Assembly (NCBI GenBank): GCA_014695325.1
Contig: JACJNZ010000048.1
Location: 248,001-312,000, forward strand
DNA: 64,000 nt
DNA from: Cyanobacteria bacterium FACHB-502
GTDB lineage: Bacteria > Cyanobacteriota > Cyanobacteriia > Elainellales > Elainellaceae
Reading direction: 5' to 3'
In this document: one piece after another, positions 34,051 through 41,605 of the stretch
Layout: every line of letters begins with the position of its first letter
Position numbering within the stretch: the first letter of the stretch is position 1
Position numbers and translations under genes: made by a program
The notes under the pieces: generated by a model
Databases searched by the model: none
What the model saw: the letters and a program-made list of their open reading frames with translations, nothing else
What the model was told of the DNA's origin: nothing

Positions 34051-36111
34051 ATGATTTGCTGTCTCAATCCTCACTGCAAGAAACCGCTCAACTCCGCAAG
34101 TGAAACAATCTGTCAAGGCTGCGGCGATGCTCTGATCCGCCTGCGAGGTCGGTATCGGGCAGTGCAGCCACTCGGACAAGGTGGATTTGGCAAGACGTAT
34201 TTGGCAGTTGACGAAGATCGACTGAACAGCAAATGTGTGATCAAGCAGTTTTCGCCGCAAATTCAGGGAACGAAGTCTTTGGATAAGGCGGTTCAGCTTT
34301 TTAACCAGGAAGCGGTACGGTTGGACGAACTGGGTGAGCATTCCCAGATTCCAACGCTGCTAGCGTATTTTGAGCAGGAACGCTACCTGTATCTGGTGCA
34401 GCAATTCGTCGAGGGACAAAGCCTGCTGCAAGAAATGCGGCAAAATGGGGCGTTTAGCGAACGACAGATTCGGGATGTGCTCTCGGATGTGTTGCCCGTG
34501 CTGCGCTTTATTCATCGCCATCAGGTGATTCACCGAGATATTACGCCTGCCAATATTTTGCGCCGTCAGTCAGACGATCGCCTAATTCTGATCGATTTTG
34601 GCGTTGCCAAGCAAATTAACGAAGAGTCTGCCGGAGAGCAGGGAACCCGAATTGGCACAGAAGGATATGCGCCAATGGAGCAGTTTCGCGGCGGCAAGGC
34701 ATATCCTGCCAGCGATCTCTATAGTTTGGGGGCAACCTGCCTGCATTTGATGACGGAAACTCGACCCGACAACCTTTATGACCCGCTCAACGGCTGCTGG
34801 ATTTGGCGAGAATATTTGCGTAATGACAAGAAAACGCTGGTGAGCGATCAACTTGCCCACATCCTGGACTATATGTTGAAGGATCTGGTCAACGAACGCT
34901 ATCAGTCTGCCGATGAGGTCATGCGTGACCTAAATGCCGACTCCTTTTTCCCCACGGTGGCGCAATTGCCTTTGGCGAGAACTGCAAAGCCGCCCATTCA
35001 GCCTGTTGGCTTGGGGGGACAGCCGATCAGTGCTCCCAAACGAGCCACCGTACCGCCTGCTATAGCCAGTAAACCGCCTTCGTCTAGACCCCCTCTGTCT
35101 AAACCGTTTGCCTCTACTCCGCCCACTCCAAAGCCACCTCAGGTGCAGCCGCCCTGGGAGAGTTTGCCTGCGACACCCAATTCGGGTCAGCCTAACGTGA
35201 TTTCGAGTCGGGGCAGCAATCGATCGTCCCGCGCAATGCACATTCTCACCGGACACGCTTCCTGGGTAACGTGCGTTGCTATTGGCTCCAATGTTCAAAA
35301 AGTGGCAAGCAGCAGTCTGGATGATACAGTGCGGATCTGGGATGCCGTGACGGGTCAAGAAATGTCTATCCTGAAAGGGCATAGCCGGGGCGTCAATACG
35401 ATCGCCCTCAGTCCTGATGGCAAAGCCCTGATTAGCGGCAGCGATGACTACACGCTTAAAATCTGGAATGTCAGTACGGGTACGCTGCTGGGAACCCTGA
35501 CGGGTCACAGTCGCGATGTCAATGCCGTCAGTGTTAGCCCCGACAGCAAACTGTTTGTCAGCGGCGGCGAAGACCGCACGATCCGCATCTGGAGTCTGAC
35601 TACGGGCGCATTAATGCGAACTCTGGGCGGTGAAACAGGCATGATTCGAACGCTGGCAATCAGTCCCGATGGCAAACTGTTGGCAAGTGGTGCACTGGAC
35701 AACAAAGTGCGGCTCTGGAATCTGACCACGGGCAGCCCCCTCCAGGTTTTATCGGGACACCTCAACTCGATTAATTCGATCGCCTTTTGTGCAGATGGCA
35801 AAACGTTGGTTACAGGCAGCAAAGACAAAACGATTCGCGTCTGGAACTACCAGACCGGGGAAATGCTGCGATCGCTGGCTGAACACACTCGTGATGTGAA
35901 TGCGATCGTGATTACGCCAAACGATCGATTGCTGGTCAGCGGCAGCAGCGATACAACCATTCGCATCTGGGATTTAGCAAGCGGTCGAGTGCTAATGACC
36001 TGGGCAGATCACGCCGATGCTGTAAACTCCCTGGCGATTAGTCAAGACGGTAAGCTGCTGGTGAGCGGCAGTTCAGATAAAACGGTGAGAATCTGGCAGT
36101 TGCCAACCTGA
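34051..36111 (+). CDS. 4-Cys zinc-ribbon Ser/Thr protein kinase with seven WD40 repeats
   Basis: A 686-residue paralogue of the kinase at 6951. The zinc ribbon uses Cys4, Cys9, Cys21 and Cys24. The kinase has GQGGFG (42-47), Lys65, HRDITPAN (161-168) and DFG near 182. The catalytic-loop Lys of HRDxKPxN is replaced by Thr165, while the catalytic Asp163 is kept, so activity should be tested rather than assumed. A Pro-rich linker (about 310-385) leads to seven regular WD40 repeats (about 395-686), each with GH-x-V, ISGSSD-type turn and I-x-I-W. Partner recruitment by the propeller is expected. Confidence 0.93.
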   Translation: MICCLNPHCKKPLNSASETICQGCGDALIRLRGRYRAVQPLGQGGFGKTYLAVDEDRLNSKCVIKQFSPQIQGTKSLDKAVQLFNQEAVRLDELGEHSQIPTLLAYFEQERYLYLVQQFVEGQSLLQEMRQNGAFSERQIRDVLSDVLPVLRFIHRHQVIHRDITPANILRRQSDDRLILIDFGVAKQINEESAGEQGTRIGTEGYAPMEQFRGGKAYPASDLYSLGATCLHLMTETRPDNLYDPLNGCWIWREYLRNDKKTLVSDQLAHILDYMLKDLVNERYQSADEVMRDLNADSFFPTVAQLPLARTAKPPIQPVGLGGQPISAPKRATVPPAIASKPPSSRPPLSKPFASTPPTPKPPQVQPPWESLPATPNSGQPNVISSRGSNRSSRAMHILTGHASWVTCVAIGSNVQKVASSSLDDTVRIWDAVTGQEMSILKGHSRGVNTIALSPDGKALISGSDDYTLKIWNVSTGTLLGTLTGHSRDVNAVSVSPDSKLFVSGGEDRTIRIWSLTTGALMRTLGGETGMIRTLAISPDGKLLASGALDNKVRLWNLTTGSPLQVLSGHLNSINSIAFCADGKTLVTGSKDKTIRVWNYQTGEMLRSLAEHTRDVNAIVITPNDRLLVSGSSDTTIRIWDLASGRVLMTWADHADAVNSLAISQDGKLLVSGSSDKTVRIWQLPT

Positions 36112-36580
36112 AAACTGTTCGATCCTCCTGAACTCCCTGCAAGAGGGATTTGAGCCTATCGTTCTAATATGCTCATCAATTTGCCTTGTGCAAAAGGAGC
36201 AGGGACGATCGGTGTAGATCTTGCCCATCGATCTACAATCAACACAGCCTGAACATGATTGCTAAAAACCTGTTTAGGGCGATTACTCCTTCGGGGAACT
36301 GCGAAGCAACTGGTTTTGAGGCAGGGAAGGAGGATTGTACAGAATATTCCTACCTAAACCCTTGAATTAGGCTCTTATACAGAATCATTTCCGTCTAAGC
36401 AGCTAAAGTGAGATCCTATGCGGAGATATTTCAGCCTATATCGCTGCCCAGGGATCTTAGGCAGAAACATTCAGTCTAATAACTTGTTATGTTGCCAAAC
36501 CTCAGTAGGGAAAACGTTTTCACGATTACTGTTAAGCTTTAGCAATAAGTTATTTTGAGGTGCATAGCAAATAGTCACAA
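36112..36580. other. Intergenic stretch at the left edge of the accessory island
   Basis: No gene is visible. AT content rises here. GTTATGT at 36486-36492 resembles the right-end core of the cassette site at 38336, but I find no inverted partner upstream, so I do not call it a site. Confidence 0.45.
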
Positions 36581-37405
36581 TTAACCGTTTACCGCTTCAT
36601 AGTCTTCCCAAGCTGCCTTCACACCAGCCTCTATAATCAAGCTCAAATCACACCCATACTCTCCAGCACAGCTAAAAGAACCAAGTTCTAGGATAAATAA
36701 CTCCCCTTCCGACTCACAAATATCTACTGTGTAGAGCAATTCTGGATACCAATTAACCTGCTTTAACACTTCAGCAAGGTAATTTACTAAATAGCCACCT
36801 TTAATTCTCTCGTCAATTCTTTCCTCTCCAATCAGGTAAAGAGAACCAGTGATGATCTCGTCTTTGTAAACAAAAAATCGCCACTCCTTAGTAATCGATC
36901 GCTTTCCACTCACGAGTACTAAAGTTGTTTCATCTCGTCTTAACTCACTTCCTAAAGTTTTAATGGTATTTAGAACTTGAATGTTAAACACACCAGCACG
37001 GAACGACTTCATATTGCTGTCAGGTCTAATAAAAAGCTCACCGTTGGACTGGAAATATTCAAGAATTTCTTCTCTTCTTCTGATTAGCTCACCTAATGGA
37101 AGAATGAAATACTTGTTGTTTAGCAAATACTGACCGAAATAAGCATAGTAGGTCGTACAACGGAGATTCTTCTCATCCATATATGCTCCAGGAATCCAAG
37201 AAGTTCGTAGGACATCTCGACCTAGATTTAGGGTTCCTCTAAATAACACACATTCGTGATCTGAAAAGTATTTGTTTGCTTCTTCAGGTCGAAAGTCAAG
37301 ATATCTAACCTCTTTGTAGAAATAGTTCTGCCTTTTTAACTCCTCTAAAAATTGCTCATCAGCATCAGAGACATATCTTTCAATTAGCCAGTTTACTTTT
37401 TCCAT
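36581..37405 (-). CDS. ATP-grasp domain protein (R2K-like)
   Basis: A 274-residue protein with the layout of small ATP-grasp ligase-like proteins annotated as DUF4343 or ATP-grasp R2K. Key parts are ELFIRPDSNMKSFRAGVF, a VLVSGKRSITKEWRFFVYKDEIITGSLY-like core (given here in pieces), WYPELLYTVDICE and LFILELGSFSCAGEYG, where the acidic and Asn-like positions bind metal and ATP. ATP-grasp enzymes join a carboxylate to an amine or thiol; the substrates are unknown. Base composition is AT-richer than in the flanking genes. It is on the minus strand, opposite in direction to the cassette genes that follow, with an attC-like site 105 bases before its start. Confidence 0.75.
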   Translation of the reverse strand: MEKVNWLIERYVSDADEQFLEELKRQNYFYKEVRYLDFRPEEANKYFSDHECVLFRGTLNLGRDVLRTSWIPGAYMDEKNLRCTTYYAYFGQYLLNNKYFILPLGELIRRREEILEYFQSNGELFIRPDSNMKSFRAGVFNIQVLNTIKTLGSELRRDETTLVLVSGKRSITKEWRFFVYKDEIITGSLYLIGEERIDERIKGGYLVNYLAEVLKQVNWYPELLYTVDICESEGELFILELGSFSCAGEYGCDLSLIIEAGVKAAWEDYEAVNG

Positions 37406-37706
37406 ACCTGTCCGCGTTTGCTGTTGTTACTAGATTCTGCCTTTCATTAAAGAATGGTAGTACTATTTAAACCTGTAGGTGAAAGAGTTAGAGTTGTGTT
37501 GATGCAGCAGCATAACCAGTCGGTTGCAGCGGACATCTGTTTGTCCCTATGCCAAGTTTAAAGATACTTGCTGCCGTTGAACCGGGTCGTTAGGCTATTC
37601 AAGCTATTGATTAGGATGTAGTTGAGAAGTTATCTGCTGATGTGCGAAGTTATGCTAAGCTGCACCCTTAAAAACACCGGAATTTTGGTTAATTCTATGA
37701 GTCACT
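37406..37706. other. Spacer holding the first attC-like site
   Basis: The spacer separates the minus-strand ATP-grasp gene from the plus-strand GNAT gene. It contains the inverted-repeat site 37510-37595. The rest is AT-rich, with no clear promoter boxes. Confidence 0.5.
37510..37595 (+). other. attC-like site A
   Basis: The left core is GCATAAC (37510-37516) and the right core GTTAGGC (37589-37595), which is GTTRRRY. The inner arms CGGTT-G-CAGCGG and, reverse-complemented, CGGTTCAACGG pair with one extra G on the left arm, as in the extrahelical base of attC sites. Total length is 86 bases. Confidence 0.6.
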
Positions 37707-38258
37707 ATGAGCCAGCAGACTTATCTGAAAGTACCTTTTGTTTGGGAAGAGCCTAAGCCGCTGATTGAGGTTCCTTCTCGATTAAAGTTCAAAGCTGCTA
37801 AAACACTGGACTATGAGGTATTGCTTTCAGTAGTTGCTGAGGTTATGGAATCATCAATCGATGCCAGCGATCGAAAACAAGTTATGGAACGCGGTTCTCG
37901 CGAAGTTGCCGAGCAGTTTCTAGCCGAGTCGAAAGATGGATTCTCGTATCGAGATGAATGGTGGCAGATAGGGCTTAGTAGCGATGATAGAGTCATTGGG
38001 TTTGTTTTCCCTGTGATCTATCAAAATGGTGCTAAAAATGGTTTGGAAGAAGCAACTATTTATTACATCGGGGTTTTGCCAGAATATCGTGGGCTGGGCT
38101 TTGCAACCGATTTGCTGTTAAAAGGAACGAGGGTATTGCAAGATGTAGGAATCTGGAGGGTGTTCTGTGATGCAGACGTAAACAATATCCCAATGATTTC
38201 TACCTTTGAACGAGCTGGATATCAGCAGCACAGTGAACCTTGGCAACGTCCTCTGTAA
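37707..38258 (+). CDS. GNAT-family N-acetyltransferase (cassette gene)
   Basis: A 183-residue acetyltransferase. The acetyl-CoA motif lies in IGVLPEYRGLGFATDLLLKG (about residues 115-134), followed by the C-terminal FCDADVNNIPMISTFERAGY that is typical of the fold, in which an Asn and the aromatic RAGY close the domain. The substrate is unknown; GNAT enzymes acetylate amines of antibiotics, proteins or small metabolites. GNATs are frequent cargo of integron cassettes. The start has no strong ribosome site. An attC-like site begins nine bases after the stop, and another lies upstream. A/T-rich codons set it apart from its neighbours. Confidence 0.82.
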   Translation: MSQQTYLKVPFVWEEPKPLIEVPSRLKFKAAKTLDYEVLLSVVAEVMESSIDASDRKQVMERGSREVAEQFLAESKDGFSYRDEWWQIGLSSDDRVIGFVFPVIYQNGAKNGLEEATIYYIGVLPEYRGLGFATDLLLKGTRVLQDVGIWRVFCDADVNNIPMISTFERAGYQQHSEPWQRPL

Positions 38259-38267
38259 ATACGCAAG

Positions 38268-38342
38268 ATGTAACACCGACCGTTGAGAGGTTATCTGTGA
38301 GTATTAAAGGGTATCTGCGGCGGGTAATGGGCAGCGTTATGT
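38268..38342 (+). other. attC-like site B (degenerate)
   Basis: The left core is ATGTAAC (38268-38274) and the right core GTTATGT (38336-38342); outer arms GATGTAAC and GACATAAC (reverse complement) match at six of eight. The inner arms pair only weakly (CCGTT against CCATT). It starts nine bases after the GNAT stop. Weaker than sites A and C. Confidence 0.42.
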
Positions 38343-38492
38343 CGCAGACTTCAGAGTGAGGCGATGCTTGAGTTTTATCTGTCCCTATTCTTAAAAAAAG
38401 CATTGTGATTTCTTTATAAAACACTATTGCGAGGCTAAATAAGGGATATCTAAGTTAGCCTAAGCACCAAACTTTGATCTCAAGCCCACTAT

Positions 38493-39620
38493 ATGAATTC
38501 TCCTAAGAAGAAACGGTTTGAAGATTTTGGTCCCTACTCTCATTGGAACTGGCAAGCTCAATTAGAGAAAGGTTTACCTAACTCTGCTGTAGAGATTGAA
38601 TTATTTAGTGATGCTTGCTTTAGAAGTACAGAGGTTGAGCATGGTCCATACTTAGTAATGAATGCTGAACCTTTTCCACCAATAGAACCTCGCCAATCAA
38701 TGCATGGTCGGCTCATTCTTCGATGTGAACATTATCTAGATCCTAATCAAGATCCAACTATCCATCCTCGCAACACAGATACATCAAGATATCATGGAGG
38801 AACCCTGCGTGATGAAATAGCAGCCCTATATTCTCTCTGCATGGGTGTGCGGTTAAAGGCTGGTGGCGTAGTTCGAGAGTTTTCACACGGGAACGAATAT
38901 GGTCAACCTCGCATTCCACGACCAGATGAAACCCCAATATTTTTCCCTCCTCATGATAGGAGGTATATTCTGCCATTTCATCCAGCCGAGCATAAGTTAG
39001 AGGCAATGCAAGAGCAGATGAACTTGTATATTCTTCTGCAACCTCAACAAGCTTCTATTCTGATTCGCTCTGCTAGGCTTTATCAAGATGCAGTGTGGTT
39101 AGCAGAGAGCGACCCTGAAATTTCCTGGCTCTTATTGGTGTCTGCGATTGAGGTAGCTGCTGGCCATTGGTACGCTGAAGAAAACCCTGATATTAAAAAA
39201 CAGCTAGAGCATCTCAAGCCAGAGCTATTCCGGGATCTGAATGATTTAGAGTGTGATGGATCAAAAGCTATCGAAATTGTTAGTCAACATCTAAAAGGGC
39301 TTTTAGGAGCAACTAATAAATTCAGACAATTTCTTGCCAGGTTTAGACCTCAAGAGCCACTTCCTAATAGACCAGTCCGGTGGCAGGTGGATTGGAGTCA
39401 ATCATCCTTGGAAAAGGTATTCAATAAGATCTATAGTTACCGCTCCAAAGCATTGCATGGAGGTACTCCATTCCCTAAACCTATGTGTAGGCCCCCAACA
39501 CGCGATTATCAGAATCAGATGTTGACAGAACGCCCAGATGTTGGGTTAGCTGAGTCATCACTTGGAGCATCTTGGAAGACAGAGGATGTTCCCATACATC
39601 TCCACACATTTGAGTACTGA
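38493..39620 (+). CDS. HEPN (ApeA-like) domain protein, hypothetical (cassette gene)
   Basis: A 375-residue protein of unknown function. The C-terminal half is helical and contains WLLLVSAIEVAAGHWYAEE near 212-230 and the motif Arg317-S-K-A-L-His322 in YRSKALHGG, which fits the R-x4-6-H motif of HEPN domains, the active site of many HEPN ribonucleases. The N-terminal 150 residues have no motif I know. HEPN proteins often serve in phage defence or toxin-antitoxin systems; for this one that is inference. It is AT-rich, lacks a clear ribosome site, and is followed by attC-like site C 78 bases after its stop. Confidence 0.7.
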   Translation: MNSPKKKRFEDFGPYSHWNWQAQLEKGLPNSAVEIELFSDACFRSTEVEHGPYLVMNAEPFPPIEPRQSMHGRLILRCEHYLDPNQDPTIHPRNTDTSRYHGGTLRDEIAALYSLCMGVRLKAGGVVREFSHGNEYGQPRIPRPDETPIFFPPHDRRYILPFHPAEHKLEAMQEQMNLYILLQPQQASILIRSARLYQDAVWLAESDPEISWLLLVSAIEVAAGHWYAEENPDIKKQLEHLKPELFRDLNDLECDGSKAIEIVSQHLKGLLGATNKFRQFLARFRPQEPLPNRPVRWQVDWSQSSLEKVFNKIYSYRSKALHGGTPFPKPMCRPPTRDYQNQMLTERPDVGLAESSLGASWKTEDVPIHLHTFEY

Positions 39621-39698
39621 GTACATAGTAAGAAATTCCTTGCTGAACTGGTGGCGAAGCATGATTGAAATTCATTCAGATAAATGTCCTAGTGAGCA

Positions 39699-39784
39699 GC
39701 ATAACAACCCTGGTGTAATGGATTGACCCAATCCGCTTGTGGTGTCGCGAAGATCTCGGCAACCGCTGACCAGGAACGTTAGGC
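39699..39784 (+). other. attC-like site C
   Basis: The left core is GCATAAC (39699-39705) and the right core GTTAGGC (39778-39784), the same cores and the same 86-base length as site A. CCTGGT in the left arm pairs with CCTGGT of the reverse-complemented right arm, and an unpaired G follows at the same place as in site A. The arms diverge in other positions, so this is a shared design rather than a copy. Confidence 0.62.
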
Positions 39785-39932
39785 AAACCTCACACAACGT
39801 TACGATGCACCTGAAGTGGCAACCGATGACCAATCATGCCATTCCTCAAAGCAATGCGAATGAAATCATGGTTAACGTTGATCAGCTCGATCGCCTCTTT
39901 CACGATTCTGATTTCCACCCGACAACATTCTT

Positions 39933-39938
39933 TATAAT
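39933..39938 (+). promoter_or_regulatory. Candidate -10 box of prfC
   Basis: TATAAT lies 27 bases before the prfC ATG. I do not see a good -35 at the right distance (nearest is TTTCCA, too close), so this is a partial promoter call. Confidence 0.45.
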
Positions 39939-39964
39939 GAAAGTTGGGTTTACAGAGCTTGAGA

Positions 39965-41605
39965 ATGTCCACTGAACTCCAGACCGAGATCCAGACTGAG
40001 ATTGCTGCTGCCGTTGAGAAACGCCGTAACTTTGCGATTATTTCCCACCCGGACGCCGGAAAAACAACCCTCACCGAAAAGCTGCTCCTCTACGGGGGTG
40101 CGATTCACGAAGCGGGAGCGGTGAAAGCTCGGCGGGCGCAGCGTCATGCGACTTCGGACTGGATGGCAATGGAGCAACAGCGGGGGATTTCGATTACCTC
40201 GACCGTGCTGCAATTTCAGTACGACGACTACTGGATCAATCTGCTGGACACGCCGGGACACCAGGACTTTAGTGAAGACACCTATCGAACACTGGCGGCG
40301 GCGGACAATGCGGTGATGCTGGAGGATGCGGCGAAAGGTCTAGAACCCCAAACCCGTAAGCTGTTTGAAGTTTGCCGAATGCGCGGCATTCCAATTTTCA
40401 CCTTCTTCAACAAGCTCGATCGCCCCGGACGGGATCCGTTTGAGCTGATGGACGAAATTGAGAAAGAGCTTGGGCTGAAAACCTATGCAGTGAACTGGCC
40501 CATCGGCATGGGCGATCGCTTCAAAGGCGTGTTCGATCGACGGGAGCGCAAGATTCACCTGTTTGAGCGATCGGCGCACGGCAGCCGTGAGGCAATAGAT
40601 ACGGTTGTAGATCTGGGTGATCCGCGTATTGAGGATCTGTTGGAAACTGATTTGTACTACAAGCTGAAGGAAGACCTGGAACTGCTAGAAATGGCGGGCA
40701 CAGAGTTTGACCTGGAGGAGATTCACGCAGGCGAACTCACTCCGGTATTTTTCGGCAGCGCGATGACCAACTTTGGGGTAGAGCTGTTTCTCAACTCCTT
40801 CTTGGACTATGCCTTGAGGCCCGGTTCGCGCCGCAGTACATTGGGCGAAGTGCAGCCGACCGAGCCAGAATTTACCGGGTTTGTATTCAAGCTTCAGGCG
40901 AATATGGACCCGCGCCACCGCGATCGCATTGCCTTTATTCGTGTCTGCTCTGGCAAGTTTGAGAAAGATATGGTCGTGAGCCATGCGCGATCGGGCAAAA
41001 CGGTGCGGTTGTCTCACCCGCAAAAGCTGTTTGGGCAGGATCGAGAGTCGCTGATGGAAGCGTATCCGGGCGATGTGATTGGTCTGAACAATCCGGGCGT
41101 GTTCGCGATCGGCGATACAATCTACAGCGGTCAGCGACTAGAGTTTGACGGCATCCCAATGTTCTCGCCGGAGCTGTTTGCTTATCTCAAGAACCCGAAC
41201 CCGTCGAAGTTTAAGCAATTCCGCAAAGGGGTGAGCGAACTGCGGGAAGAAGGCGCGGTGCAGATTATGTACTCAGTAGACGAGGCAAAGCGCGATCCGA
41301 TTTTGGCGGCAGTGGGACAGCTTCAGTTTGAAGTGGTGCAGTTTCGTCTGCAAAACGAGTATGGCGTTGAAACCCTTCTGGAACCGTTGGGCTTTAGCGT
41401 GGCGCGATGGGTTGAGGGCGGTTGGGAGGCACTGAATAAGGTTGGTCGCCTATTCAATACGGCAGCTGCAAAAGATAGCTGGGGTCGTCCTGTCTTGCTG
41501 TTCCGCAACGAGTGGAACTGTCAGCAAGTCGAAGGCGACCACCCGGAGCTGAAGCTGAGAAAAGTTGCGCCTGTGGTTTCGGGGCAAGAGCCGGAATCGA
41601 TTTAA
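39965..41605 (+). CDS. prfC: Peptide chain release factor 3 (RF3)
   Basis: A 546-residue GTPase that removes RF1/RF2 from the ribosome after termination. The G domain has [14 protein letters not shown] (P loop), the switch [16 protein letters not shown] and [10 protein letters not shown]. The RF3-typical insert and domains II and III follow, including [34 protein letters not shown] (named here in parts) and the C-terminal [12 protein letters not shown]. The start is the ATG at 39965; an upstream TTG at 39944 is in frame but has no family support. It lies directly to the right of the cassette island, so this gene marks the conserved chromosome side. Confidence 0.96.

Follow-up and report, generated by a model that had tools for sequence, protein, structure and literature searches.

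The remains of a chromosomal integron platform were identified in the window, i.e. the whole 64-kb stretch of cyanobacterial DNA that was analysed. With a probability of about 0.9, this region comprises a putative attI site, three cassettes, and two intact and one decayed attC sites, while its integrase gene (intI) has been lost. The sequence-only reading had proposed an integron cassette array without nearby integrase in a cyanobacterium. The proposal is supported, since none of the three results that would have refuted it was obtained, namely low covariance-model scores for all sites, the absence of an unpaired-base pattern in folding, or a segment found syntenic in relatives. The three attC sites had been recognised correctly, but the first cassette, the attI leader and the remnant of a small ORF had been missed. 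The sites concerned are listed below (a slash in a core marks the crossover point; R1 and R2 are the covariance models for attC and leader, respectively).

36156 to 36215, minus strand: predicted 3' remnant of a small ORF, ending in TPIVPAPFAQGKLMSILER and a stop codon; tblastn E=1.3e-4, 74% over 19 aa; family HMM E=0.003
36335 to 36479, plus strand: putative attI leader with four palindromes of about 23 bp, starting at about 36335, 36375, 36416 and 36457; spacing 40–41 bp
36447 to 36492, plus strand: last palindrome and putative attI core G/TTATGT; R2 40.9 bits, E=2e-6; insertion point after G36486
37510 to 37595, plus strand: attC s1; R1 60.0 bits, E=2e-14 (filters off)
38254 to 38342, plus strand: decayed attC s2, which retains its right half but no longer has the left R box; R1 26.2 bits, E=7e-5 (filters off)
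39699 to 39784, plus strand: attC s3; R1 64.2 bits, E=1e-15 (filters off)

The attC sites and the leader of the array

A scan of the 64-kb window for an attC-like pattern returned s1 and s3 as the top two matches (14.3 and 13.5), while shuffled windows reached scores of up to 14.9. As the scan alone was not decisive, a covariance model (R1) was built from cyanobacterial attC sites located beside intact integron integrases (full-length, with TIGR02249 above cut-off) of other genomes. For this model 17 sites were aligned and oriented by the extra base of the left arm, without any sequence of the window. Two of the three sites scored far above background and the third clearly above it, the best independent match in the window reaching 11.8 bits. 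Both s1 and s3 displayed a pronounced strand asymmetry, with 60–64 bits on the plus strand against 9–16 on the other, and carry R'' and R' cores of the type RYYYAAC and GTTRRRY as well as inverted L arms; in s2 the left side of this arrangement is failing. The E-values of several models are rough, since they were calibrated on short random sequence.

The coordinates, the cores GCATAAC and GTTAGGC and the length of 86 bp previously given for s1 and s3 were all recovered. The unpaired G noticed in their left arm corresponds to a conserved column of the 17 aligned reference sites, which show arm covariation and conserved bulges. The third site, first placed at 38268–38342, is indeed derived from an attC (66/91 in the alignment with a true attC along its length), but it is decayed, its real left edge lies at about 38254 and the left R box is gone. 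An intact attC that is 81% identical to s2 was observed at another locus of the congener G386 (L152, 5009–5096). Single-strand folds of the sites were predicted, with z-scores of only -0.3 to -1.7 for s1 and s3 and a positive value for s2. Folding energy is weak support and not exceptional, and recombination of the folded strand by IntI is inferred. The AT-richness of the array (GC 42.0% vs. 51.4% in the window; fifth lowest of 608 sub-windows) and its lack of HIP1 (none between 35868 and 40512) were confirmed. Neither Rfam nor ARAGORN gave any match in the 64-kb window.

One may object that such sites are chance palindromes, or dispersed MITE-like repeats unrelated to integrons, as the scores of the generic attC pattern overlap those of shuffled sequence. 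However, R1, built from intI-adjacent sites, found sites in 87 of the 373 cyanobacterial genomes sampled and nothing in the other 286, which served as specificity control. Moreover, the arms of the sites covary, and the sites bound single-gene units that differ between copies. The objection is refuted by these sequence comparisons, which establish the sites as attC.

Left of the array, four palindromes of the type TTAGGCAGAAACATTCAGTCTAA were located by a palindrome scan, the third unit being read by eye; the last one ends a few bases before G/TTATGT. Their half-sites (TTAGGC, TTAGAC, TTATGC) are R-box-like. A second covariance model (R2), covering the last palindrome and the core, was built from leaders outside this genome, 10 of them linked to intI and two, taken from relatives, without intI. 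On the window, the next match after the leader scored 16.3 bits. Palindrome symmetry was retained across the leader sequences, with 82% of cells paired against 29–41% in slid controls. The same leader was found between intI and the cassettes of at least 10 intact cyanobacterial integrons from seven families, either as tandem palindromes (G060, G011, G185 at two loci, G262, G346, G174 and G005) or as a single unit (G080, G253 and G357). Tandem palindromes were absent from the two other integrons checked for layout (L041, L055) and from the picocyanobacteria-like group f19. The leader was detected in 62 of the 373 cyanobacterial genomes, 52 of which also harbour attCs (expected 14.5, p=5e-30).

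Given that leaders of this kind occupy the interval between intI and the first cassette of intact integrons, the one in the window is identified by sequence as attI, with a predicted core G/TTRRRY where cassettes enter; no IntI binding data are available. This position between intI and first cassette also overturned the idea that the palindromes are an unrelated intergenic repeat. They are inferred to be accessory IntI-binding sites, a regulator-binding role being equally possible.

A different layout was observed in the picocyanobacteria-like family f19 (L051, L052, L053 and L056). Here the attCs follow the stop codon of intI and share its orientation, opposite to the arrangement usually seen in integrons.

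Cassettes and genomic context

The cassettes and their genes are the following:

36487 to 37589, plus strand: cassette 1, carrying an R2K ATP-grasp gene antisense to the array; 86.3% identity over the entire unit to contig C5 of G393
36581 to 37405, minus strand: R2K ATP-grasp ORF, 274 aa; Pfam R2K_2 E=2e-10
37590 to 38336, plus strand: cassette 2 (GNAT), delimited by attC crossover points
37707 to 38258, plus strand: GNAT acetyltransferase ORF, 183 aa; Pfam Acetyltransf_1 E=2e-10
38337 to 39778, plus strand: cassette 3 (HEPN-like gene), delimited by the crossover points of s2 and s3
38493 to 39620, plus strand: HEPN-like ORF, 375 aa, with an RSKALH (R-x4-H) motif; 79% identical to a relative in Lyngbya aestuarii BL J

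When relatives were searched at the DNA level, positions 36457–37593 of the window proved to be 86% identical to a segment of G393, which belongs to a different genus of the same family. The unit in common is bounded by a GTTATG on the left and by the R' core of s1 on the right. Outside of it, identity drops to 52% (left 110 bp) and 55% (right 200 bp), compared with 49–54% for shuffled sequence. The high identity inside the unit and the random level of its flanks demonstrate that the R2K ATP-grasp gene and s1 together form a cassette. The G393 copy has the same extent and lies behind a different attI, so that, judged by alignment, one cassette is common to platforms of two genera. As this first cassette carries an antisense gene, not all genes of the array point one way. 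The earlier description of one-gene units in a single direction stands with regard to the single-gene units, but not to direction, and the array starts earlier than had been assumed.

The GNAT gene of cassette 2 has a relative in G406 (67% nucleotide identity), which is also followed next by an attC. The product of the cassette 3 gene had no match in Pfam or NCBIfam, no relatives of the gene were found in the 145 other genomes searched, and the relative in L. aestuarii BL J has no attC nearby. As the AlphaFold model was useless (pLDDT 31) and Pfam gave no match, the assignment rests on the R-x4-H motif only, and the protein is referred to as HEPN-like. A 7-bp tandem duplication (TGAGTAC, 39611–39624) truncates the ORF, which ends 18 C-terminal residues short of the Lyngbya relative. 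A PADLOC match to Cas8f (E=9e-4) spans 43 residues and was discarded as noise.

The array is flanked by a kinase gene on the left and by prfC on the right. In G386, the one congener searched, these flanks are located about 2.6 Mb apart, indicating that the array (36111–39968) sits at a rearrangement breakpoint. The region upstream of prfC was searched for an empty site in ten relatives, and no similarity past prfC was detected; no empty site could be located, as the flanks are rearranged in G386. With the flanks apart in G386, the HEPN-like gene missing from 145 relatives and cassette 1 present elsewhere as a unit, the syntenic segment that would have spoken against an integron was not encountered.

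Loss of intI and multiplication of the platform

Neither intI nor any remnant of it was found in the window, in agreement with the earlier statement that no integrase was in view. The locus fails as a complete integron, which requires intI adjoining attI: the gene is absent here and represented only by fragments elsewhere in the assembly. It does qualify as a CALIN, a term that requires two or more attCs within 4 kb and the absence of a nearby intI, as s1 to s3 lie within 2.3 kb. In the genome-wide check for intI, nothing but fragments came to light. The 5-kb contig C72 encodes the 222 C-terminal residues of intI joined to the end of an IS630-type transposase. This fragment is the largest one, and its junction with the transposase (L006, 1–1302) probably results from a gene-breaking insertion, or else from an assembly join. 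On contig C93 a degenerate piece of intI lies between ftsH and an alcohol dehydrogenase gene, beside a leader and array, and N-terminal pieces were found at the end of C30 and on C55. As the assembly is a draft of 100 contigs, an intact intI could still be present in one of its gaps.

Between the end of the kinase gene (36111) and the leader lies the small-ORF remnant. The full small ORF is found on the far side of intI in the platforms of several family members. The 19 residues are weak evidence alone, and are supported by their position. The locus is consistent with a platform that has undergone deletion of intI and of most of the small ORF. The small ORF family (66–98 aa) had no match in Pfam or NCBIfam. 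In many platforms of the bacterial family, as well as in G185 from another family, its members are situated beyond intI (L190–L193, L195 and L196; L184–L189; L149; L043 10240–10497). In G400 a solitary small platform ORF without detected leader lies downstream of prfC (L124, 3246–3548), possibly as the relic of a lost platform.

The cassettes could also have been placed at an arbitrary GTT-like site by an IntI encoded elsewhere (attG-type insertion), without any attI ever having been present here. Such off-target insertion is among the sources suggested for arrays without integrase (PMC8618304), and would agree with the lack of a nearby intI and with the many scattered clusters of this genome. 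It is however very improbable for this locus. The start of the first cassette coincides precisely with the core of a leader which, elsewhere, marks the attI adjoining intI; this argues for a platform that lost intI. In addition, the small platform ORF remnant lies outside of the leader. For the leader-free clusters of this genome, off-target insertion is not excluded.

According to the preferred reading, the loss of intI from a platform, IntI would have recombined the folded single strand of the attC of each circular cassette with attI, the crossover falling between G and TT; the enzyme may have been supplied by another locus. Of the platform itself, intI and most of the adjoining small ORF are gone. 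The catalysis by IntI, the single-strand folding of attC and any action in trans are inferred. With only fragments of intI in this assembly, the array of the window is probably frozen today.

The array is not isolated. While the sequence-only reading was right in regarding it as real, its view of a single locus missed dozens of further attC clusters and the intI fragments in the same genome. At least 82 attCs (R1, E<0.01) were detected on 27 contigs, in at least 45 clusters as defined by a 4-kb same-strand rule; these are lower bounds, since only part of the candidates was scored. R2 gave 17 matches (E up to 10); once palindromes read on both strands had been counted a single time, 14 distinct leaders remained. 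Of these, 12 are located 0.5–3.1 kb upstream of an attC on the same strand (E<0.01), and a thirteenth precedes an attC of E=0.026 by 0.9 kb. That 13 of 14 leaders lie within 5 kb of an attC has a chance of about 1e-22. Many other attC clusters of this genome had no leader detected by R2. All 36 genomes of the family contain attCs according to R1 (2 to 122 each), and an IntI match above cut-off was obtained in 18 of the 36, some of these being truncated or interrupted by stops.

Two closed related genomes, G011 and G388, revealed that the platform is multiplied, mostly without intI. G011 has one intact intI and six leaders spread across the chromosome, and G388 has one intI with a stop codon and several platform copies. 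Five of the G388 copies share a 604-bp deletion inside intI with an identical junction, and the four with a leader attached have different first cassettes, the change occurring exactly at G/TT. Upstream of the attI core, copies are 96–99% identical among the G388 deletion copies, 100% between L190 and L196, and 87–92% among three copies of the window's genome. Downstream of the core, identity in the same copies falls to the random level of 50–53%, with the switch exactly at G/TT, as predicted by an IntI crossover between G and TT. The mirror case was found in G011, where a platform with intI and one without have leaders of 53% identity and a first cassette of 91% identity. These alignments demonstrate an exchange of cassettes exactly at attI cores, in relatives as well as at other loci of this genome. 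The G388 copies have a sharp outer end at the stop codon of the small ORF, and no inverted repeats, target duplication or transposase could be established around the platform copies. One G388 locus (L196, 4143–6024) was seen to be composite: a leader and intI residues 1–188 are joined to a second copy that carries the 604-bp deletion, resembling the product of recombination between two platforms.

A distributed integron can be envisaged from these data, in which the platforms without intI still function as attI sites and would receive their cassettes in trans, through one intI located elsewhere. No activity data exist, and the idea is held only tentatively. The single intact intI of G011 next to six leaders, two of which differ (53%) and are followed by the same first cassette (91%), speaks for it. 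The G388 copies do so as well, since loading in trans after the loss of intI is the simplest reading of a common deletion combined with different first cassettes. On the other hand, the copies could have been loaded while intI was still present in the copy or a neighbour, the deletion being spread afterwards by gene conversion, and no intact intI was found in the window's own genome. It is possible, but not favoured, that most platforms are copied deletion derivatives lacking intI and that cassettes are stored independently of the place where the integrase is encoded.

Relation to known integrons and significance

The locus resembles the sedentary chromosomal integrons of Vibrio and Xanthomonas in having an attI followed by attC-ended cassettes with all sites in one orientation. 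It differs by the absence of intI, by tens of small arrays instead of one large array in the genome, and by the palindromes preceding attI. As in attI1 of class 1 integrons, the core ends in GTTRRRY and extra repeats occur beside it. In attI1 these are direct repeats, whereas the accessory elements here are 3–7 palindromes with a spacing of about 41 bp. A related integron with an intact intI is that of plasmid pB of Kovacikia minuta CCNUW1 (NZ_CP083584.1), which has a four-palindrome leader and five attCs of the same type. Its IntI and the C72 fragment share 71% identity. In contrast to the window, the arrangement is canonical and plasmid-borne. The array side of this plasmid locus (L204, 4245–12660) includes genes for a DNA cytosine methyltransferase and an AAA ATPase; a small CDS beside intI was considered, and is not a member of the small ORF family.

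Integrons have been known in cyanobacteria since genome surveys (PMC2426708), and a cyanobacterial attC model exists (PMC8352920). Arrays without integrase are also known (PMC8618304; PMC9024848), and off-target insertion, intI loss and rearrangement are debated as their origins (PMC8618304). The locus shares with CALINs the presence of two or more attCs separated by less than 4 kb, cassettes of one gene each and no intI nearby (PMC9024848), but it retains an attI leader that can still be recognised as well as part of the platform ORF, and many such loci occur in one genome. In Xanthomonas extra CALINs were found at seven loci (PMC12444791), compared with 45 clusters here. The attG off-target sites (Loot et al., 2024, cited in PMC12444791) would likewise place cassettes far from intI, whereas the insertion point in the window is an attI leader. 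The palindromic attI leader, the multiplied platforms with deleted intI, the cassettes common to them and their loading without intI appear to be undescribed. The literature search lacked most subscription papers, and absence is not proof.

Because identification of the attI leader does not depend on intI, off-target insertion and loss of intI can be distinguished for each locus individually. In this way the window, together with a dozen or more further clusters of this genome, is assigned to the platforms that lost intI. The leader model also offers a way to find attI across cyanobacteria, where this site is hard to recognise. If the reading of a distributed integron is true, the tandem-palindrome leader would be an extended attI letting IntI find scattered sites. 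The dozens of arrays in one genome raise the question whether one integrase can feed many scattered insertion sites, and the multiplied platforms of closed genomes allow a direct test of whether IntI acts in trans on many attI sites.
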